DNA from: Clostridium sp. AT4
GTDB taxonomy: Bacteria > Bacillota > Clostridia > Lachnospirales > Lachnospiraceae
DNA length: 64,000 nucleotides
Assembly: GCF_001517625.2 (NCBI RefSeq)
Contig: NZ_LN999825.1
Coordinates: forward strand, 62,001-126,000
Direction of reading: 5' to 3'
Shown here: one piece after another, positions 53,616-64,000 of the stretch
Numbering within the stretch: the first letter of the stretch is position 1
Layout of the letters: each line of letters starts with the position of its first letter
The notes under the pieces: generated by a model
Database searches by the model: none
Told to the model about the DNA's origin: nothing
What the model saw: only the letters and a program-made list of their open reading frames with translations
Program-made: the position numbers and the translations under genes

Positions 53616-54950
53616 TCAATTCCCATCCATTCCCTTCCGGTAAGTCCGCACCAGCAGCGGAACCTCTGCGATCAGCATTCCGATCCAGCCTGCCATATAG
53701 GCCAGAGGAAGGGCCTCAATTCCCATTCCCATCAGGAATACCAGCGGCAGTGCTGCCAGTACCCGCACACCCATATTGATAAAGCTGCTGATGAGGGTAA
53801 TCTTCAAATCGCCAATCCCTCTGAAATAGCCCTGGATACCGTTAGTAGCTGCGGGAAGCAGATACATGGCTGCGATCAGATGGAGATAGCTTACTCCATG
53901 GCGGATGACCTCCTCATCCTTTACAAAGAGCAGCATCAAGGGCCGTGCAAAGAGAAAGCAGACAGCAAACACAGCCACGCCGTAAATCAGCTCCAGCTTC
54001 ATTCCGCAGCGGAAGCCTTCCCTCATACGTTCCTTCTTTCCCGCACCTTTATTCTGGGCCATAAGAGCGGTCATAGCGTGGGCGATATTCTGCTCCGGCG
54101 TATAGGCGAAATCATCGATCCGGTTTACGACTGCAAAAGCAGCTGCCACCGATACTCCCATGGTATTTACAATAGCCTGTATTCCCAGCTTTCCCAGCTG
54201 AACGGTAGCCTGCTGCATGGCGGAAGCCCATCCATAGGAAATCGTACACTTCAGCAGCTTCCGGTCAAACACCAGCCATTTTTTCCCCAGCCGCAGCATT
54301 GGTACCTTCTTTTGTATATAAATCATACAAAACAGGCAGCAAAGAGCCTCGCTGATTACAGTGGCAATGGCGCAGCCGTTGCTTCCGGCCCTTAATACGA
54401 CTACAAAAAACAGATCGCCGAAAATGTTTAATACTGCACTGATAATCAAAAAATAAAGGGGCGTATTGCTGTCCCCCAGAGCCCTTAAAGTACTGGAAAA
54501 AAAGTTATATAAAAAGGTAAACATCAGACCCCAGAAAATAATCCGCAGATACTCCTTTGTCATCTGCATGATCGACGGATCAACCTGCATGAGCATGAGG
54601 ATCGGTTCTGCAAATATAACACAGATCAGGGTCAGAATGATGGAAAATACCATTCCCGATATCATGGTTGTACTGATCTGCCGGTGAAGCGTATCATAAT
54701 CCCTGGCTCCGTACTGCGTTCCCATAAGGATGGCTGCTCCCATGCACAGTCCGTTGAGAAAAAGGATCATCAGAGTGGTAATGGGATTGCAGATTCCCAC
54801 AGCCGCCAGTGCCTCTTTTCCAACAAAATGGCCCACGATGATACTGTCCACCGCATTGTATGTCAGCTGGAATAAATTCCCCAGCACAAGCGGAACTGTG
54901 AACTGCACCAGCATGGGCATTATTTTTCCGGTCGTCATATCCTTTGTCAT
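53616..54950 (-). CDS. MATE-family multidrug efflux transporter
   Basis: 444 residues, twelve membrane segments in two related halves; the first half carries LVLGNLFQLTYNAVDSIIVG and the second GKLGIQAIVNTMG. Na+- or H+-driven export of cationic compounds is the usual role. The start at MTKDMTTGK has GGGAG 9 bases upstream; an ATG 48 bases earlier lies nearer the palindrome and is less likely. It is transcribed alone. Confidence 0.9.
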   Translation of the reverse strand: MTKDMTTGKIMPMLVQFTVPLVLGNLFQLTYNAVDSIIVGHFVGKEALAAVGICNPITTLMILFLNGLCMGAAILMGTQYGARDYDTLHRQISTTMISGMVFSIILTLICVIFAEPILMLMQVDPSIMQMTKEYLRIIFWGLMFTFLYNFFSSTLRALGDSNTPLYFLIISAVLNIFGDLFFVVVLRAGSNGCAIATVISEALCCLFCMIYIQKKVPMLRLGKKWLVFDRKLLKCTISYGWASAMQQATVQLGKLGIQAIVNTMGVSVAAAFAVVNRIDDFAYTPEQNIAHAMTALMAQNKGAGKKERMREGFRCGMKLELIYGVAVFAVCFLFARPLMLLFVKDEEVIRHGVSYLHLIAAMYLLPAATNGIQGYFRGIGDLKITLISSFINMGVRVLAALPLVFLMGMGIEALPLAYMAGWIGMLIAEVPLLVRTYRKGMDGN

Positions 54951-54989
54951 ACTGTGTTCTCCCTTGTCATTCTCTTTCATACTATAAAA

Positions 54990-55003
54990 TGTAAACACTT
55001 ACA
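54990..55003. promoter_or_regulatory. palindrome upstream of the MATE gene
   Basis: On the minus strand TGTAAGTGTTTACA, with five-bp perfect arms. Together with its flanks (TTGTAAGTG, TTACATTTT) it matches the site at 36976-36994 except at one base. Confidence 0.45.
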
Positions 55004-55099
55004 ATATTAGTGCATTTCAGGAGAATGTCAAGAAAAAACTCCTTCTCGTCTCTGCATTTTGCACCGCCTCCGGCGTATCCTGAAGTCCGGTGCGCAGCT

Positions 55100-55801
55100 T
55101 TACTCCACCTTCATCATCCGATACCCCACTCCGATATGGGTCTGGATATACTGGGGGGAATCGGGCTCGCTCTCCAGCTTTTTACGCAGAGTTGCCATAA
55201 ATACCCGCAGGGAGGCGATATCATTATCCCAGCTGCTTCCCCATACCTTCTGCGTGATATAAGTATGGGTCAGGACCTTTCCCACGTTCTGGGCCATGAG
55301 GCAGAGCAGCTTGTACTCGATCGGCGTTAAGTGCATTTCCTTCTCTCCCAGATAAGCGCAGCCTGCTCCATAGTCGATCCGCAGCCTTCCGTTTGTAAAT
55401 ACGGATTCTCTTCCCGCCCCGTCGCCGTTCATAACTGCCAGACGCCTCTGGGTGACGCGCAGTCTGGCAAGAAGCTCCTCAACGGAAAAGGGCTTCGTCA
55501 GATAATCATCTGCCCCCGCATCCAGAGCGTCGATCTTATCCGTATCCTCGCTTCTGGCACTGATCACAATAATGGGAACATTCGACCAGCTGCGTACCCT
55601 TTTGATAACCTCCATGCCGTCCATATCAGGCAGTCCCAGATCCAGCAGGATAATATCGGGATTCTGGGAAGCGGTTGCCAGAACTCCCGCTTCTCCGTTT
55701 GCTGCTGTCTGGAACCGGTAATCGTTTGCTTTTAATGTGGTAGTGATCAAATTGCGCACCGGAGCGTCATCCTCGACCACTAAAATTAATGGTTTATTCA
55801 T
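55100..55801 (-). CDS. KdpE-like response regulator (OmpR family)
   Basis: 233 residues. Receiver domain with ILVVEDDAPVRN (acidic pair), IILLDLGLPDMDG (phospho-Asp) and the Lys in YLTKPFSVEELLAR; C-terminal winged helix with LTPIEYKLLCLMAQNVGKVL and RVFMATLRKKLE. The sequence is near KdpE. It overlaps the kinase gene by 8 bases. It probably binds the 11-bp repeats at 58926-59040 in front of ktrB. Confidence 0.9.
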   Translation of the reverse strand: MNKPLILVVEDDAPVRNLITTTLKANDYRFQTAANGEAGVLATASQNPDIILLDLGLPDMDGMEVIKRVRSWSNVPIIVISARSEDTDKIDALDAGADDYLTKPFSVEELLARLRVTQRRLAVMNGDGAGRESVFTNGRLRIDYGAGCAYLGEKEMHLTPIEYKLLCLMAQNVGKVLTHTYITQKVWGSSWDNDIASLRVFMATLRKKLESEPDSPQYIQTHIGVGYRMMKVE

Positions 55802-56879
55802 GCAGTGTTACCTCCTCTGCAGGCAGTGTAAATGTAAATACAGCCCCCTGGGGCTTATTGTCTGATACCCATATTTCTCCCCCGTGCGCCCGGATAATGG
55901 ATCTGCACAGTCCCAGCCCCAGTCCCAGGCTCCTGCGTCCGTCCGCCGCCCGGTTTGTTCCTGTATAAAACATATCAAATACTTTTGATTTCTGTTCATC
56001 CGGTATTCCAGGACCTGTATCGCTGACCGACACCACCACCATACCGTCCTTTTTTCCTGTATGGATCCGGATTTGGGCTCCCTCAGGCGTATATTTTACA
56101 GCATTGTCCACCAGATTGATCACTACCTGGACAATCAGCCTGGCATCCATCTTTCCCAAAATAAACTCCTCATCACTGCTTACCTCGATCTTCCGTCCGT
56201 CCCGGTTCCGGTCCGTATGGCGCATCGCCTCGGCAATGACCTCATCCATAAGCTCTGCAGACATCCGAAGATCCATCCGTCCGTCCTCAATCCGTGTGAC
56301 AGACAGCAGATTTTCCACCAGCTTGATCAGCCACATGGAATCATCATAAATGTCCCCATAGATCTGCATCCGCGTCTCCTGGCTGAATTCATTTTCATTG
56401 GAAAGCAGGTTGCTGGCATTTCCGGAAATAGAGGTAAGAGGAGTGCGCAGATCATGGGAAATGGACCGAAGAAGGTCAGCCCGAAGCTGCTCCTTTTCAA
56501 TCTGCATGGCCGCCTGGGCGGACTCCCTGGCATATTCCTTCATCCGGGAGGCCAGAGAACCGGTAATAAGGGCTACCAGAAACATGATGCCAAAGGTCAC
56601 CGGATAGCTGGGGTCATAGGCCCGCAGGGTAAAACGCGGGATTGTAAACAAAAAATTAAAGGCCAGTACGCTGATCACAGAGGCCAGAAAACTGTACATC
56701 CAGCTGCTTGTAATAATAGATATAATCAGCACACCCAGGATGTACACGGCGATAATATTCGCCTCCGGGATCTTAAGCCCTGAAAAAAGGAGTCCCACCA
56801 GCGTAGCCGCGATCAGAATTCCCGCAGCCCGTCCCCCATCTCTTATAATGCTGTGTGTTCTACGGGAAAATCGTTTCAT
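55794..56879 (-). CDS. KdpD-like sensor histidine kinase lacking the N-terminal KdpD and USP domains
   Basis: 361 residues. Four membrane helices of the DUF4118 kind (ILIAATLVGLLFSGLKIPEA, FLASVISVLAFNFLFTIPR), HisKA with the phospho-His in SISHDLRTPLTSISG, and HATPase with NLVDNAVKYTPEG, SDTGPGIP and GLGLGLCRSI. Full KdpD is about 900 residues; the first 380 or so (ATP-binding KdpD and USP domains) are absent. Its ATG overlaps the ktrA stop (ATGA). Expected to sense K+ or turgor. Confidence 0.9.
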   Translation of the reverse strand: MKRFSRRTHSIIRDGGRAAGILIAATLVGLLFSGLKIPEANIIAVYILGVLIISIITSSWMYSFLASVISVLAFNFLFTIPRFTLRAYDPSYPVTFGIMFLVALITGSLASRMKEYARESAQAAMQIEKEQLRADLLRSISHDLRTPLTSISGNASNLLSNENEFSQETRMQIYGDIYDDSMWLIKLVENLLSVTRIEDGRMDLRMSAELMDEVIAEAMRHTDRNRDGRKIEVSSDEEFILGKMDARLIVQVVINLVDNAVKYTPEGAQIRIHTGKKDGMVVVSVSDTGPGIPDEQKSKVFDMFYTGTNRAADGRRSLGLGLGLCRSIIRAHGGEIWVSDNKPQGAVFTFTLPAEEVTLHE

Positions 56880-57523
56880 ATCTTAAAACATTTCTGGATA
56901 TCACGGCTCTCACCCAGAACCAGCATGGTCGCATCATCGGTAAGCATGGTATCTGGCCGGATCGCCATATCCAGCTTTCCATCCCGCTTCAGAGCCATGA
57001 TATTGATATTGAACTTCTTTCGTATGTCTACCTGTCCGATGGTCTTTCCCACCCAGTTCTGAGGCATTTCAATCTCAAAAATAGCGTGAGTGTCACTGAT
57101 CTGCACATAGTCAAATATATGCTCTGAGCTGTAGCGGATAGCTGTCCAGTTTGCCACCTGCTTTTCCGGGTAGACGATCTCATCTGCACCATTCCGCAGC
57201 AGGAACCGGGCGTGTACATCTCTGGAAGCACGGGAAACCACCATCTTGGCCCCCAGATCCTTTAAATAAGCCGTTGTCTCCAGAGAGCTCTGGAAGTCGC
57301 TGGCAATGGCGACAATGCACACATCAAAATTGCTTACGCCAAGTGTTTCCAAAAACTCCATATTGGTGCTGTCTCCGATCTGGGCATTGGTTACATATGA
57401 CATAACCGCCTCCACGCGGTCCTCCTGCTTATCTACCGCCATAACCTGATGATCCAGCTCGTATAATTTTTCTGCCACATGACGGCCGAAACGGCCCAGT
57501 CCAATAAGTAAAATTGATTTCAT
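56876..57523 (-). CDS. ktrA: KtrA/TrkA K+ channel regulator (RCK domain)
   Basis: 215 residues. RCK_N Rossmann fold with LIGLGRFGRHVAEKL and Asp-lined ligand pocket, and RCK_C domain with VGKTIGQVDIRKKFN. Such octameric rings gate KtrB in response to ATP/ADP and often c-di-AMP bound at RCK_C. Lies 18 bases after ktrB and overlaps the kinase gene. Confidence 0.92.
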   Translation of the reverse strand: MKSILLIGLGRFGRHVAEKLYELDHQVMAVDKQEDRVEAVMSYVTNAQIGDSTNMEFLETLGVSNFDVCIVAIASDFQSSLETTAYLKDLGAKMVVSRASRDVHARFLLRNGADEIVYPEKQVANWTAIRYSSEHIFDYVQISDTHAIFEIEMPQNWVGKTIGQVDIRKKFNINIMALKRDGKLDMAIRPDTMLTDDATMLVLGESRDIQKCFKI

Positions 57524-57541
57524 AAGTCATTTCCCTTTCTT

Positions 57542-58888
57542 TTATCCCACAGTAATCTTTTCCTGGGGCAACCTTGAAACATGAGGCTTCACTCCGGAAA
57601 TAGCCGCATAGACCAGTGTCAGTCCGCCTACTCTTCCGCAATACATTAAAAGAATCAGTATGATCCGTGATGTCGTTCCCAGCTCCGGCGTAATGCCAAG
57701 GGTCAATCCTACCGTAGCAATGGCAGAGGCTGTTTCGTAAATACAGGTTAAGATAGGAAGGCCTTCCAGATAACTGATAGCAAGCGCGCCTCCGATACAG
57801 AGTGTGATATACATCATCATTACAACCGCCGCATAACGCACGGTTTCCTCTGAAATACGCCGCCCGTAGCACTGCGTATCCTCCTTGCGGTAAAATACTG
57901 CCCAGCCGGACAGCAAAAGCACTGCCAGAGTAGTCGTTTTCATACCGCCTGCCGTAGACCCCGGCGAACCTCCTATGAGCATCAAAATCGCTGTAAGAAG
58001 CTGTCCCGGCTCGCTCATGGCTGTCAGATCCACCGTGTTAAATCCCGCAGTCCTGGGCGTTACAGACTGGAATAAAGAAGCCCAAATACGCGCGCCCCGT
58101 CCCTGCCACTCAGGCCCGTTAAATTCAAGAAAATAAAAAATCACTGCCGGGATCAGGATCAAAAGAGCCGTTGTGGTGAGAATCACCTTGCTCTGCATCC
58201 TGTATTTTCTCCAGCACCGCCGGTTGGTCCATATATCCTCCCATGTGAGAAAGCCCAGACCGCCCACTACGATCAGCATCATAATGGCAAAATTGATAAC
58301 CGGATGGCCCACATAATGGGTCAGAGAGGAAAAGGGTTCTCTTACGCCCATAAGGTCAAAACCTGCGTTGCAGAATGCGGAAATCGAGTGGAATACTGCA
58401 TACCAGATTCCCTTAACAAAGCCGAAATCCTTAATAAACTGCGGCGCCATCAAGACAGCGCCCGTCAGCTCAACGATAAACGTACCTTTGAGGATAAAGC
58501 CCGTAAAACGGACGATCCCTCCTACCTTGGGTGCAGAAATAGCATCCTGCATGGTACTTCGTTCCCTCAGGCCGATTTTTTTTCCAGACACCATAGCCAC
58601 AGCCACAGCCACAGTCACTACGCCCATACCGCCGACCTGAATCAGCGAAATGATCACAAACTGGCCAAATTCCGTCCAGTAGGTCGCAGTATCATGTACG
58701 ATCAGCCCTGTAACACATACGGCAGATGTAGAGGTAAACAGCGCGTCTAAAAAGGGCGCTCCCCCTGATCCTTTGGTTGATATGGGAAGCATCAGGAGCA
58801 GTGCTCCCATAAAGATCACTCCCATAAAACCGAAAATAATGATCTGAGCGGACGTCATATGTTTTTTTCTGCCCTGAACATTCATCAT
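57542..58888 (-). CDS. ktrB: KtrB/TrkH K+ uptake channel
   Basis: 448 residues. The four M-P-M repeats each have a filter loop with a conserved Gly: STSAVCVTGLIVHDT, SISAFCNAGFDLMG, SVTPRTAGFNTVDL and TASAIATVGLTLGI. The start at the ATG-ATG at 58888 has GGAGGG 6 bases upstream; the frame is open to 58915. First gene of the four-gene K+ operon. Confidence 0.94.
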   Translation of the reverse strand: MMNVQGRKKHMTSAQIIIFGFMGVIFMGALLLMLPISTKGSGGAPFLDALFTSTSAVCVTGLIVHDTATYWTEFGQFVIISLIQVGGMGVVTVAVAVAMVSGKKIGLRERSTMQDAISAPKVGGIVRFTGFILKGTFIVELTGAVLMAPQFIKDFGFVKGIWYAVFHSISAFCNAGFDLMGVREPFSSLTHYVGHPVINFAIMMLIVVGGLGFLTWEDIWTNRRCWRKYRMQSKVILTTTALLILIPAVIFYFLEFNGPEWQGRGARIWASLFQSVTPRTAGFNTVDLTAMSEPGQLLTAILMLIGGSPGSTAGGMKTTTLAVLLLSGWAVFYRKEDTQCYGRRISEETVRYAAVVMMMYITLCIGGALAISYLEGLPILTCIYETASAIATVGLTLGITPELGTTSRIILILLMYCGRVGGLTLVYAAISGVKPHVSRLPQEKITVG

Positions 58889-58925
58889 AATATCCCTCCG
58901 GTTAACGGACACCATAAAAACCGTC

Positions 58926-58955
58926 TCTTTATACGGTCTTTATATTGTCTCTGTA
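58926..58955 (+). promoter_or_regulatory. KdpE-type box cluster 1 (11-bp repeats, TCTTTATA)
   Basis: TCTTTATA occurs at 58926 and 58937, exactly 11 bases apart, with a degenerate third (TCTCTGTA) at 58948. OmpR-family regulators bind such direct repeats at helical spacing. Confidence 0.6.
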
Positions 58956-59010
58956 ATTGCTAATTATGCCACATCATTCAAAAAGATTGTGTTAAAAGTA
59001 AAAACGCTGG

Positions 59011-59040
59011 TATAAAGATTGTATAAAGACGGCATAAAGA
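59011..59040 (+). promoter_or_regulatory. KdpE-type box cluster 2 (11-bp repeats, TATAAAGA)
   Basis: TATAAAGA at 59011 and 59022 and CATAAAGA at 59033, again 11 bases apart and in inverse orientation to cluster 1. A CATAAT -10 for ktrB (minus strand, 58963-58968) lies between the clusters. Confidence 0.62.
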
Positions 59041-59057
59041 CCCCATTAGGAAACTGC

Positions 59058-59888
59058 CTAAAAATCTCCGCTCTTATCCATATCGGGAAGTTCCATCGCC
59101 GTCTTATCGGTAGGAGCGCAGCCGAACATCTTCCGATAGGCTCTGAAAAAGCTGGAATAATCTCCAAAGCCGGCTCTGGATGCAGCCTCAGCCGCCGGAG
59201 TCCCCATTGCCAGTTCTTTTCTTGCAATAGTCATGCGCTTATAAATAATATAACGGGCTACCGTAGTTCCTGTTGCCTGGCGGAATATGGAAGTCAGATG
59301 ATTTCGGCTCATAAAAAACTGCTCTGCCAGCCCCTCTACCGTCAGCGTATCCCTCAGATGGCTGTTAATATACCGGATTATCTCCTGGGCCTGTCCCTCT
59401 GCTCCATGAACGCGTCCCGCACTTCGGACGTATATTGCAGAAATACCCGCCAAAAGCGACAGGATCCGTGTGCGAATTGCAATATTCTGCAGCTCCTTCC
59501 CGTAAGTACCGCACTCTTCGATTGCATGAAAATACCATTCAATGGGGAACTGCTCTTCAAGACAGCCCCATCCCGTTCCAAAGGGCTTTAACAGAAGCTC
59601 CCGCTCCTTTCCATTTAAAAGATCCTCTGTAAAATGAACCCGGATCCGGTCATATTCATTTCCATCCAGCACTCTCAGACCATGAAAACAGCCTGGTGCG
59701 ATCACTAAAAGGCTTCCCGGACGGGGACAATAGGATCTTCCTTCCAGAAGATACTCTACATTCCCGGTTATCATATAATAAATCTCATAGCTGTTATGGC
59801 AGTGCATTTTATACTCCATGTCTGCCTCATCACTGCGGGTATGGGCATAGATCACCTGCTCTGTCTTAAAACTGACCTCCTGGTACAC
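59058..59888 (-). CDS. AraC-family regulator with cupin domain
   Basis: 276 residues. The cupin sensor has MHCHNSYEIYYMITGNVEYLLEG and LLVIAPGCFHGLRV; the C-terminal AraC domain has LTVEGLAEQFFMSRNHLTSI and AASRAGFGDYSSFFRAYRK. There is no sugar operon beside it; its target is not evident. It ends 170 bases before ktrB and is followed by the response-regulator boxes. AAATGAGG precedes the ATG. Confidence 0.88.
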   Translation of the reverse strand: MYQEVSFKTEQVIYAHTRSDEADMEYKMHCHNSYEIYYMITGNVEYLLEGRSYCPRPGSLLVIAPGCFHGLRVLDGNEYDRIRVHFTEDLLNGKERELLLKPFGTGWGCLEEQFPIEWYFHAIEECGTYGKELQNIAIRTRILSLLAGISAIYVRSAGRVHGAEGQAQEIIRYINSHLRDTLTVEGLAEQFFMSRNHLTSIFRQATGTTVARYIIYKRMTIARKELAMGTPAAEAASRAGFGDYSSFFRAYRKMFGCAPTDKTAMELPDMDKSGDF

Positions 59889-60099
59889 CTCATTTCCTCC
59901 TGACTTTTTCTGTCCGTCCCTTCCTTCGGCCGCACATTTTTCGTTATCTATCAGTTTATCAGAGTTTGTGCATTTTGCAATATTTCTTTTTCATTTCACA
60001 ATGGAAATCCTTACCCCAATATACTATAATCCTAATTGTAAACAAAACCGAAAGGGTCCTCCCCCTTTCACACATTTTATCCCCCCTTTATACACATAG

Positions 60100-60133
60100 A
60101 AAAGACCAGGTATCCCCAGTACCTGGTCTTTTG
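60100..60133. terminator. terminator of aspA
   Basis: AAAAGACCAGGTA and TACCTGGTCTTTT arms (60100-60112, 60121-60133) with an 8-base loop. Symmetric, so it may act in both directions. Confidence 0.75.
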
Positions 60134-60147
60134 CTGTTTAAGCAGTT

Positions 60148-61554
60148 TTATAATTTGTAATCCACCGGATGGCCCGCCTGGGTCATATCCACCAGACTTA
60201 AATAACGATCCAGTTCTTCTTCCGGCAGCAGTCCCTCCTCAAGTACGATCTGGCGCACCGGAATCCCGGTTCGATTGCATTTTTTTGCAATTTCGGCCGA
60301 TTTTTTATATCCCAGAGCCGGACAAAGGGCTGTAGCCAAAGCCGCGCTGGACTCTACCAGAGCACGGCAGCGCTCTCTGTTCGCCGTAATACCGAGAATA
60401 CAGTTATCGATCAGCGTCTCCACCGCCCCTCTTAAGGTATCGATCGACTCAAAAATCTTATAGAAAATCACCGGCTCAAAAGCATTTAATTCCAGCTGTC
60501 CTGCCTCTGCAGCCATAGTAACGGTTACGTCATTTCCGATCACATTGTAGGCAACCTGGGAAACCACCTCCGGGATAACCGGATTGATCTTTCCCGGCAT
60601 AATGGAAGAGCCGTTCTGCTTCGGAGGCAGATTGATCTCTCCCAGTCCTGCTTTGGGGCCGCTGGAGAGCAGACGCAGATCATTGCAGATCTTAGACAGA
60701 TTTACCGCACAAACTCTGAGAGCCGCAGAGGTATGTACAAAGCCGTCCAGATTCTGGGTGGCGTCAAACAGATCCTCTGCCTGGCTGCAGTCTGTGCCAC
60801 AGACGAGGTTTACATTTCGGATAATGTGAAATAAGTACACCGGGTTTACATTGATCGCCGTTCCCACCGCAGTAGCTCCGATATTCAACACCTTAAGCTC
60901 TGAATCCAGGGAGCGTATCCGCCGGATATCTCTCTCGATCACTGCCGCATAGGCTTCAAAGGACTGCCCCAGGCGGATCGGCACCGCATCCTGAAGCTGG
61001 GTCCGTCCCATCTTTACCACATCGTCAAATTCAATGGATTTGTCCCTCAGAGCCTTGTGCAGCCGTTCCAGCTGTTCCAAAAGGCCCGGAAGCAGCGCCA
61101 GGATCGTAAGCTTTCCTGCACTGGGGATCACATCATTGGTAGACTGGGCCATATTTACATGGTCATTGGGATGAACAATCGTATAATCCCCCTTTTCACC
61201 GCCCAGGATCTCAATCGCCCGGTTGGCTATGACCTCGTTAGCATTCATATTGGCCGAGGTGCCTGCGCCTCCCTGAATGGCGTCTACAATAAACTGAGAA
61301 TGGAGCTTTCCCTCTATGATCTCATCACAGGCCTTTACAATGGCATTTCCAATCTTCTCGTCCAGTATATGGGCCGTCATATTGGTATAAGCCGCGGCCT
61401 TTTTTATTCTCACCAGATTTTTTATAAATTCCGGATGCAGCGGCCGTCCTGTAATGTGAAAATTCTTCTTCGCGCGTAATGTCTGTACTCCATAATACGC
61501 CTTCATGGGCACCTCCATTGTGCCTATGGAATCCGCTTCTTTTCTGGTTATCAT
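60148..61554 (-). CDS. aspA: aspartate ammonia-lyase
   Basis: 468 residues; interconverts aspartate and fumarate plus ammonia. The superfamily signature GSSIMPGKINPVIPE carries the catalytic loop serine; IVHPNDHVNMAQSTND and VKMGRTQLQDAVPIRLGQ are the other two conserved blocks. The latter pattern and the N-terminus (RKEADSIGTMEVPMKAYYGVQ-like) distinguish it from fumarase C. AGGAGGAG lies just upstream of ATG. Single gene between two terminators. Confidence 0.94.
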   Translation of the reverse strand: MITRKEADSIGTMEVPMKAYYGVQTLRAKKNFHITGRPLHPEFIKNLVRIKKAAAYTNMTAHILDEKIGNAIVKACDEIIEGKLHSQFIVDAIQGGAGTSANMNANEVIANRAIEILGGEKGDYTIVHPNDHVNMAQSTNDVIPSAGKLTILALLPGLLEQLERLHKALRDKSIEFDDVVKMGRTQLQDAVPIRLGQSFEAYAAVIERDIRRIRSLDSELKVLNIGATAVGTAINVNPVYLFHIIRNVNLVCGTDCSQAEDLFDATQNLDGFVHTSAALRVCAVNLSKICNDLRLLSSGPKAGLGEINLPPKQNGSSIMPGKINPVIPEVVSQVAYNVIGNDVTVTMAAEAGQLELNAFEPVIFYKIFESIDTLRGAVETLIDNCILGITANRERCRALVESSAALATALCPALGYKKSAEIAKKCNRTGIPVRQIVLEEGLLPEEELDRYLSLVDMTQAGHPVDYKL

Positions 61555-61623
61555 AATATATCTCCTCCTGTTTTGCAGGTAGTGTCAAAAACCACCTTTA
61601 CTCCGGCTCCTATCTGGAGCATA

Positions 61624-61947
61624 TCACTTTTTTACAAAATTCTGCAGTTTCATTGCTTTTTCCAGATTTCCCTCAACTCTCAATTTTCCTGTGGTAAAGG
61701 CAAAAATCGGATCAAGTTTTCCACTGGCCAGCTTAAAAAGCGTATCTGCAGTACAGGTAAACACTGCGTCCCTGTCATAATATTCATAGGGTTCCACACA
61801 GAGAGTACCCTCTTTTACTTCTGCGTAAAATGCTCCTTCCCCTTCTCCTGTGACATTAAACTGGAATGCCAGATGCTCCTTTTCCCCGCTTACATCTGCC
61901 TCCATAAAAATACTTTTAATCTGTGTAAATACTTCCTCGTACGTCAT
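61624..61947 (-). CDS. SCP2 sterol-binding-domain protein, copy 1
   Basis: 107 residues forming one SCP2 domain (TYEEVFTQIKSIFMEADV ... FTTGKLRVEGNLEKAMKLQ), the hydrophobic-ligand fold also found in lipid carriers. It differs from copy 2 at 63484 in 12 of 107 residues by eye. AAGGAG lies 8 bases before ATG. The pair flanks the cotJ operon. Ligand unknown. Confidence 0.88.
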   Translation of the reverse strand: MTYEEVFTQIKSIFMEADVSGEKEHLAFQFNVTGEGEGAFYAEVKEGTLCVEPYEYYDRDAVFTCTADTLFKLASGKLDPIFAFTTGKLRVEGNLEKAMKLQNFVKK

Positions 61948-61983
61948 ACCTGTATCTCCTTTTCCTATTTTTTACACTTCTTT

Positions 61984-61994
61984 AGTATACCATG
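61984..61994 (-). promoter_or_regulatory. extended -10 for SCP2 copy 1
   Basis: Minus strand TGGTATACT, an extended -10 with TATACT at 61984-61989, 37 bases before the ATG. The rest of the 61948-62290 gap holds no gene and no clear cotJ promoter; CATACTAA at 62188 resembles a sigma-E -10 but lacks a matching -35. Confidence 0.45.
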
Positions 61995-62290
61995 ATTTCC
62001 CTTTGTTTTCCAGACAGCCGAAAATCGGATATGTTATACTCTCCGCACAAAACGGAAGGCATTTTCTGTTTCTGAAGCACAAAACTAACTCTTCCTCTTA
62101 ATTTATTATTGACGTCGGGAAATAGAATAGACGCGACAAATTCCTTTTCTTCCGTTCATTCCCAAAGGGAGCCTTATGAAACCGGGACATACTAAGATCA
62201 GCGCCCGGTTTCCGGCGCCGGGGTTTTCAGGCAGGTTTTAGGATCTTGAAAGCCCCGATCCACATGTTCAGAAAGAGAGGTACTATTTAA

Positions 62291-62509
62291 ATGAACCTGT
62301 ATCGAGACGAAACCGCTCCTTACGCTGCTGTCTGCGGATACGAAAGAAATTCCCCGTTTCCCGGCGAAAAGCTGACGCTTGCAATCGCTGCAGTTCCTAC
62401 CCAGCCCTGGGAAACGCCCCTTTCTCCGGCTGTGGGACTGAAGCAGGGGAGTATCTTTCCGAGCCTCGTGCTCCCGTTTTTTAAGGAAGGAGGAAACGCT
62501 CATGTCTGA
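62291..62509 (+). CDS. cotJA: spore coat-associated protein CotJA
   Basis: 72 residues, Pro-rich: LAIAAVPTQPWETPLSPAVG followed by GSIFPSLVLPFF, the CotJA pattern. In Bacillus CotJA is needed for CotJC to assemble into the coat. AGAGAGG lies 10 bases upstream of the ATG. Overlaps cotJB by 8 bases. Confidence 0.9.
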   Translation: MNLYRDETAPYAAVCGYERNSPFPGEKLTLAIAAVPTQPWETPLSPAVGLKQGSIFPSLVLPFFKEGGNAHV

Positions 62510-62804
62510 CCGTAAAGCCATGTTAAAGGAACTTCAGGAAATCAGCTTTACTGCCGATGATCTAAACCTATACCTTGATACCCATCCTCTGGATATGCCT
62601 GCACTTGAAGCCTTTATGCAGGCAAATACCAGACGGAAAAACCTTCTCGAACAATTTGCCAGGGAATTTGAACCCCTTACCAGAGACTGTGTCTGCCCTG
62701 ATACAAACAATCAGTCCGGCTTCTGTACCGACTACCCCGGACAGAAACATTTTACCTGGACCGACGGGCCTCTGCCCTGGGATCGTGAAGGAGGTGTTCT
62801 CTGA
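62502..62804 (+). CDS. cotJB: spore coat protein CotJB
   Basis: 100 residues: LQEISFTADDLNLYLDTHP and LDMPALEAFMQANTRRK, ending with the family's W-W-x-G-P-x-P-W-like WTDGPLPWDREGG. The position between cotJA and cotJC is conserved in spore formers. AAGGAGG precedes the ATG. Its stop overlaps the cotJC start (TGATG). Confidence 0.93.
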   Translation: MSDRKAMLKELQEISFTADDLNLYLDTHPLDMPALEAFMQANTRRKNLLEQFAREFEPLTRDCVCPDTNNQSGFCTDYPGQKHFTWTDGPLPWDREGGVL

Positions 62805-63421
62805 TGTGGATCTATGAAAAGCGTCTCCAGTATCCTGTCAATATAAAAAAGACCTGTCCCAAAACCGCATCTCTGATCATCAGTCAGTTTGGCGGTCCGG
62901 ACGGTGAATTAGCTGCTTCCATGCGTTATCTTTCCCAACGCTACACCATGCCATGCAGAGAAGCAGCGGGACTTTTAACGGATATCGGCACAGAAGAACT
63001 GGCTCATCTGGAAATCATCTGCGCTATGGTATTTCAGCTTACCAAAGACCTGACGGCAGAACAGGCAAAGACAGCCGGATTTGATGCTTATTATATTGAC
63101 CATGCCACCGGACTGTGGCCTGCGGCTGCCGCAGGCATTCCCTACAATGCCTGCGAATTCCAGTCTAAGGGAGACGCCATCACAGACCTTCATGAAAACC
63201 TGGCTGCAGAACAGAAAGCCCGGAGCACCTACGAAAACCTTATCCGCATTATTGATGATCCGGATGTACTGGATCCACTTCGATTTCTGCGTGCCAGGGA
63301 AATCGTCCATTTCCAGCGGTTCGGTGAAGCTCTGGAAAAGATAAAGGACAGCCTGGACAGCAAAAACTTCTATTTCTTCAATCCTGAATTTGATAAACAG
63401 TTTACAGCAGAGGCAAAATAA
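62804..63421 (+). CDS. cotJC: spore coat manganese catalase-like protein CotJC
   Basis: 205 residues. Four-helix ferritin-like manganese catalase fold: the metal Glu/His pairs fall in DIGTEELAHLEII and in the ENLAAEQKARSTYENLI and LRAREIVHFQRFGEAL helices. The N-terminus MWIYEKRLQYPVNIKK is typical of CotJC. Protects the spore or breaks down peroxide in the mother cell by family knowledge. A strong terminator follows. Confidence 0.95.
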   Translation: MWIYEKRLQYPVNIKKTCPKTASLIISQFGGPDGELAASMRYLSQRYTMPCREAAGLLTDIGTEELAHLEIICAMVFQLTKDLTAEQAKTAGFDAYYIDHATGLWPAAAAGIPYNACEFQSKGDAITDLHENLAAEQKARSTYENLIRIIDDPDVLDPLRFLRAREIVHFQRFGEALEKIKDSLDSKNFYFFNPEFDKQFTAEAK

Positions 63422-63430
63422 GTCTAAAAC

Positions 63431-63475
63431 AGCCGGCAGGAGCCTGAATCCGGATGCTCCTGCCGGCTGCTTTTA
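63431..63475. terminator. terminator shared by cotJC and SCP2 copy 2
   Basis: AGCCGGCAGGAGC (63431-63443) pairs perfectly with 63456-63468; TTTT follows on the plus strand, TTTTAG on the minus. Confidence 0.88.
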
Positions 63476-63483
63476 ATTTTATT

Positions 63484-63819
63484 CTATTTATTTTTCTTCA
63501 CAAAGCTTTGCAGCTTCATGGCTTTTTCCAGATTTCCTTCAACCCTCAGTTTTCCTGTGGTAAAAGCAAAGATTGGATCCAGCTTTCCGCCTGCCAGCTT
63601 AAAAAGCGTCTCTGCGCTGCAGGTAAAAATGGCATCTCTGTCATAGTATTCGTAGGGCTCTACATAAAGTACGCCTTCCTTTACCTCAGCATAAAAAGCG
63701 CCTTCTCCTTCACCTGCAATATTAAACTGGAATGCCAGATGCTCCTTTTCCCCGCTTACATCTGCCTCCATAAAAATTTTCTTTACCTGTGAAAATACTT
63801 CTTCGTATGTCATCCCCAT
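63484..63819 (-). CDS. SCP2 sterol-binding-domain protein, copy 2
   Basis: 111 residues, nearly the same as copy 1 (12 changes over the shared 107, most conservative) with two extra residues at each end. By comparison with copy 1 the true start is probably the second ATG (63813), although AGAGGT stands closer to the first. It converges on cotJC. Confidence 0.88.
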   Translation of the reverse strand: MGMTYEEVFSQVKKIFMEADVSGEKEHLAFQFNIAGEGEGAFYAEVKEGVLYVEPYEYYDRDAIFTCSAETLFKLAGGKLDPIFAFTTGKLRVEGNLEKAMKLQSFVKKNK

Positions 63820-63923
63820 TTCTACCTCTTGGTTTTCATTTTATTTTTATATCAGGTATTAATATAATATACTATTTTTCTAAAAAACGCAATAAAGGCC
63901 ATCTGCCCAAGCGCACCTAAATT

Positions 63924-63951
63924 AAGAACTGCCGTTAAAACGACAGTTCTT
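63924..63951. terminator. hairpin near the right edge
   Basis: AAGAACTG (63924-63931) pairs with CAGTTCTT (63944-63951), with partial inner pairing. It may be the terminator of a gene beyond the window. The region 63820-64000 has no gene. Confidence 0.4.
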
Positions 63952-64000
63952 ACATAATAATATTATTCTGATTACTAACACATTCCCTGCACTACAAAAT

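Follow-up and report, generated by a model that had tools for sequence, protein, structure and literature searches.

Facing arrays of predicted KdpE half-sites at ktrB promoters of Lachnospiraceae, and a possible hand-over of potassium uptake from Ktr to Kdp

Why should a potassium transporter gene be preceded by two clusters of 11-bp repeats that point at one another across its promoter? The question is raised by a locus of the gut bacterium Clostridium sp. AT4 (the window, here, is the whole stretch of 64,000 nucleotides that was analysed), for which a sequence-only reading had claimed two facing clusters with the likely ktrB promoter between them, and had suggested binding by the KdpE encoded in the operon and possibly a loop or two-sided complex formed by the pair. 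KdpE is known as an activator of the Kdp pump. The explanation that we favour, at a probability of about 0.6 and from sequence comparison, is that KdpE activates ktrB from the upstream cluster and limits it through the inverted one, with a hand-over of uptake from Ktr to Kdp.

The operon lies on the minus strand in the order ktrB, ktrA, a kdpD half and kdpE:

59058-59888, minus strand: gene for an AraC-type regulator, upstream, ending 17 bp before the arrays
58894-58899, minus strand: Shine-Dalgarno sequence GGAGGG of ktrB, read from the sequence
57542-58888, minus strand: ktrB, TrkH/KtrB K+ transporter membrane subunit (PF02386, 9e-54)
56876-57523, minus strand: ktrA, TrkA-N/TrkA-C regulatory subunit (domain search)
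55794-56879, minus strand: C-terminal half of kdpD, with DUF4118 and a histidine kinase but no PF02702 sensor part (domain search)
55100-55801, minus strand: kdpE, response regulator (domain search, family match and residues), present within the operon as had been claimed

The regulator is KdpE-like by best match, operon and residues rather than by the NCBIfam cut-off: it scores 219.7 bits against the KdpE equivalog, below the 325-bit threshold, which is still the best of 99 families. Its best matches among solved structures are KdpE, and the residues R193, R200 and T215, which E. coli KdpE needs for DNA binding (PMC3264566), are kept as R199, R206 and T221. The PF02702 sensor half of KdpD, a protein of 686 aa with no kinase, has its gene next to kdpFABC at another place in the genome (G000:C7:1732059-1737248, L071); with the sensor half there and the kinase half alongside ktrBA-kdpE, the split KdpD links the two potassium systems. 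The nearest named relative is Enterocloster alcoholdehydrogenati, whose ktrB is 88% identical; there (L179, G001 contig 15, 54800-59500) no kinase gene lies between ktrA and kdpE, which follow one another directly, and a kinase-bearing kdpD half adjoins kdpFABC instead. A second KdpD-like (DUF4118-type kinase) and KdpE-like pair, its KdpE 49% identical, adjoins a D-Ala-D-Ala carboxypeptidase-like gene (L178, G000 contig 6, ~610-612 kb), and no convincing KdpE box was found near this pair. The window also encodes two small proteins of much the same sequence (MTYEEVF...EADVSGEKEHLAFQFN), some 1.9 kb apart at 61624-61947 and 63484-63819, an apparent duplication.

From upstream to downstream of ktrB, the promoter region contains the following elements:

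59044-59051, minus strand: weak fourth unit of cluster 2, TCCTAATG (from the sequence)
59033-59040, minus strand: distal half-site of cluster 2, plus strand CATAAAGA, minus strand TCTTTATG (from the sequence, scored)
59022-59029, minus strand: unit of cluster 2, plus strand TATAAAGA, minus strand TCTTTATA, predicted KdpE half-site at position 0, the anchor
59011-59018, minus strand: unit of cluster 2, plus strand TATAAAGA, minus strand TCTTTATA, predicted KdpE half-site at position 11, where the family consensus is TCTTAATA/G
58990-58997, minus strand: degenerate promoter-proximal half-site TTTTAACA, family position 31, here 32 (family profile peak)
58979-58986, minus strand: degenerate promoter-proximal half-site TCTTTTTG, family position 42, here 43 (family profile peak)
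58963-58968, minus strand: -10 element CATAAT with extended TG (TGGCATAAT), at a constant distance from the anchor, 61 in the window
58948-58955, plus strand: weak unit of cluster 1, TCTCTGTA, inverted array, family position 74 (register; conserved in E. alcoholdehydrogenati)
58937-58944, plus strand: unit of cluster 1, TCTTTATA, inverted array, family position 85 (register; conserved in E. alcoholdehydrogenati)
58926-58933, plus strand: unit of cluster 1, TCTTTATA, inverted array, family position 96 (register analysis; kept in the relative)

As ktrB is on the minus strand, cluster 2 (59011-59040) is upstream and cluster 1 (58926-58955) lies over the probable transcription start, every step being 11 bp and the two facing each other. 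Read along the ktrB strand, 59040-59011 is TCTTTATG-ccg-TCTTTATA-caa-TCTTTATA, followed by about 40 bp that close with the extended -10, and 58955-58926 is TACAGAGA-caa-TATAAAGA-ccg-TATAAAGA, followed by the ribosome site and ktrB itself (ATG at 58888). We infer a start near 58956; no clear -35 was seen at this promoter. The two facing clusters are present as the sequence-only reading described them, and a search for TATAAAGA-N3-TATAAAGA with up to two mismatches gave four matches in the 64-kb window, all at the arrays, where 0.07 are expected; its promoter between the clusters is supported by the constant placement of the -10, while the weak fourth unit and the two degenerate proximal units are additions to what it had listed. 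Exact TCTTTATA-N3-TCTTTATA pairs occur only three times in the 3.41-Mb genome, twice at the ktrB arrays. The third copy (G000:C6:404615-404633, L003) is flanked by genes for a response regulator and a solute-binding protein. Across 200 genomes the exact 8-3-8 motif is not enriched genome-wide relative to a reversed control, and several matches look like chance (L091, within a gene, and L093-L096), so that we base the claim on where the arrays lie, on their register and on what they co-occur with, and do not argue from counts of the motif.

To place the upstream cluster in its family, ktrB orthologues were gathered across Lachnospiraceae in two sets and their upstream DNA was read. In the first set the array precedes 26 of 32 ktr operons with kdpD/E but not one of the 24 without (Fisher 1.5e-10), and five of the six misses show visible degenerate pairs (L133, L155, L160, L161, L167). 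The second set gave 20/22 with kdpDE and 2/9 without, the two being G262 and G325, in which kdpA is present and the array is found though the ktr operon does not include kdpDE. When 33 promoters were aligned without gaps on the first half-site, TCTTTAT appeared at 0, TCTTAAT at 11, weaker half-sites at 31 and 42, and TATAAT at 60. With ties scored toward 60, the -10 stands at 60 from the anchor in 26/33 promoters of the first set (at 61 in 6/33) and in 18/21 further promoters, a distance nearly constant across some 50 promoters. In other Enterocloster, strong arrays stand before trkA-like/kdpDE operons as well.

KdpE boxes are already known, and so are clostridial KdpE sites that resemble the E. 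coli one. The E. coli box at kdpFABC is TTTATA-N5-TTTACA, at -72 to -50 (PMC3264566), and the window promoter shares with it direct half-sites resembling TTTATA/TTTACA with an 11-bp period, a location upstream of the -35 position (~-73 to -55 from the inferred start), and the association of potassium uptake genes with kdpDE. It differs in its target, as the window array precedes ktrBA with kdpDE inside the ktr operon, and in its additional elements, the proximal half-sites over the -35 position and the inverted array over the start. According to a second-hand report (PMC5401905), KdpE of C. acetobutylicum binds a T-rich, E. coli-like site at kdp; this too is a clostridial KdpE on a site of the same type, but what that report relates concerns the kdp promoter only and mentions no inverted second array. 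These comparisons, over about 54 Lachnospiraceae genomes, support the upstream cluster as an activator box of ktrB promoters and a candidate KdpE site, and the match to the E. coli box together with the co-occurrence with kdpDE makes KdpE very probably the protein that binds the arrays, in agreement with the earlier proposal. The same upstream plan, degenerate and weaker, recurs before kdpFABC, with scores mostly above the shuffle maximum, and the kdpF box of the window genome itself is weak and ambiguous in place; of 22 kdpFABC promoters, none has an inverted array. Two other repeats were noticed in passing: upstream of ktrB at L140, tandem CATAAAGCATGT repeats of ~12 bp occupy the place of the KdpE array elsewhere, and upstream of a TrkH gene (L045, G003 contig 1) long tandem repeats of ~90 bp (...CCACTTGGCGCGGTCTTCCACAAGCC...) adjoin a run of N.

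The inverted array is not peculiar to this locus. A strict search for the facing double array in 397 genomes matched five genomes of four genera, always directly before ktrB, and its reversed control pattern had no match. Among 30 non-redundant anchored promoters, nine contain inverted 11-bp unit pairs, 15 pairs in all, and 14 of these keep one register (units at 52, 63, 74, 85 and 96); 1000 dinucleotide shuffles yielded at most five pairs and at most three in one register, and no forward-oriented pairs occur in the same stretch. Six further genomes that had no part in discovering the register, four of them independent (G409 and G297 share a lineage with the first set), show it within 1 bp (52-85, 63/74, 52-74, 52-85, 62/73 and 63/74). 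In the window the first inverted unit is at 74 and the -10 is left uncovered. In E. alcoholdehydrogenati it is intact down to the weak third unit, within an unbroken conserved stretch, and the DNA just downstream has changed. Read on the opposite strand the inverted array is itself a predicted KdpE box, and several genomes preserve the order TCTTTAT then TCTTAAT. Conservation in relatives, on which the sequence-only reading had staked its case, is thus found for both arrays, the upstream one over dozens of genera and the inverted one in about 12 lineages, where it overlaps the -10 and start of the ktrB promoter. The inverted array needs about five changes when placed on the ktrB tree, three of them forced by well-supported branches, and it is therefore not one inherited copy. 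Genomes classed in several genera (G118, G153, G206, G297, G409) share near-identical ktrB loci, which suggests horizontal transfer.

The inverted array is enriched where the Kdp pump is encoded. A full kdpA is present in 36 of the 397 family genomes; the inverted array occurs in seven lineages with kdpA and five without, compared to 3 and 34 for upstream-only promoters (p = 8e-4), and as three of the five have kdpC or kdpB/C traces directly upstream, counting any kdp trace gives 10/2 versus 4/33 (p = 7e-6). Near-identical loci were collapsed beforehand, shared ancestry is only roughly handled, and the association was first seen in the first set and retested on the joint set, so these p-values serve as guides only. 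Exceptions run both ways: G368, G262 and G325 have kdpA and an upstream array with no inverted one, and G304 and the 76%-complete G189 have the inverted array without kdpA. At one locus (L182, G153 contig 1, 1822500-1830300) a large serine recombinase element that lies immediately before kdpC and ktrB truncates kdpB, and kdpA was not found. The occurrence of the array pair in related genera, mostly Kdp owners, suggests that one regulator may both activate and limit a transporter.

How might this work? Phosphorylated KdpE would bind the upstream array at its distal half-sites (0/11) and its proximal ones (31/42), which overlap the missing -35, and would recruit RNA polymerase to the extended -10, the proximal half-sites replacing the -35; we infer this activation step because the box is a known one, the geometry is constant, and the array co-occurs with kdpDE. 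The facing array would be a second KdpE box of opposite orientation over the -10, start and early transcribed region, on which KdpE would exclude polymerase on or just after the start, and from its position we consider such repression probable. Since KdpDE is a product of the operon, which would thus be self-activating, rising phosphorylated KdpE would fill the inverted array and cap ktrBA-kdpDE, and since kdpFABC has the activating array only and would stay on, the Kdp pump would take over uptake from Ktr when potassium is severely limiting. That this hand-over is the purpose of the repression is an attractive idea to which we give slightly less than even odds; the same tentative standing applies to the fuller statement that in gut Lachnospiraceae the phased array self-limits ktrBA-kdpDE, hands uptake to Kdp, and has repeatedly been acquired or lost along with kdpFABC. 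In its logic, to activate and then repress, the nearest analogue is OmpR, which activates ompF from tandem upstream sites and at higher phosphorylation represses it from an additional, weaker one as the sister target ompC is turned on (PMC3050692). The repressing ompF site, F4, differs in being far upstream and acting by a loop; the extra array here is inverted and would repress from its place over the start.

A loop was also the proposal of the sequence-only reading: KdpE on both arrays would form a looped or two-sided complex, and this would activate the promoter or hold it poised. Both arrays keep a fixed register and face each other, which suits it, as does the looping of OmpR at ompF (PMC3050692). 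However, no more than about 50-80 bp separates the arrays, the -10 is just as fixed, so the register could be that of the promoter itself, the inverted units vary in number and place (52 to 96), and most KdpE-type ktrB promoters do without them altogether. Nothing specific speaks for a loop; it is possible, though unlikely, and steric, self-limiting repression fits the inverted array more simply.

That another protein binds the arrays, either an OmpR/PhoB-family regulator such as PhoP or the neighbouring AraC-type protein, seems quite improbable. Response regulators of this family do bind 11-bp direct repeats (RR_1586, for example; PMC6222199) and the genome has at least 12 other OmpR/PhoB-family members, but the arrays equal the KdpE box in sequence and their presence tracks kdpDE and kdpFABC. 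The AraC protein we reject, as its gene is missing at other loci and does not accompany the arrays outside E. alcoholdehydrogenati.

Still less can be said for the inverted pair as an RNA hairpin or cruciform that attenuates read-through or hides the ribosome site. A read-through RNA is more stably folded than its shuffled versions (z = -2.3) and the last unit extends into the ribosome site in some genera, but the spacers of the facing arrays pair at chance level (0.15-0.38) where most half-site positions are close to 1, so that selection appears to act on the half-sites, pointing to a second predicted binding site and leading us to reject a hairpin. Moreover, units 52 and 63 precede or overlap the -10 and fall outside the promoter's own transcript, a hairpin has no need of a strict 11-bp step, and upstream arrays also occur alone. 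Equally remote is a convergent promoter activated by the inverted array toward the upstream gene: an activating box acting on the opposite strand would be oriented in this way, but that gene varies between genera and a mirror -10 is not conserved when promoters with and without the array are compared, and we reject it. A known riboswitch, such as one for c-di-AMP, is out, with no Rfam match at 54000-64000.

Among the open papers searched, none deals with KdpE control of ktrBA in Lachnospiraceae and none describes a facing KdpE array. Self-limiting control by KdpE would be of interest beyond this locus, as KdpE appears to control a second class of transporter here, and a conserved geometry could give the one protein two opposite roles. 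If true, it explains how a single regulator can rank potassium transporters, and the consensus of half-sites at 0/11/31/42, a -10 at 60 and inverted units at 52-96 could be used to predict KdpE regulons in gut Clostridia.
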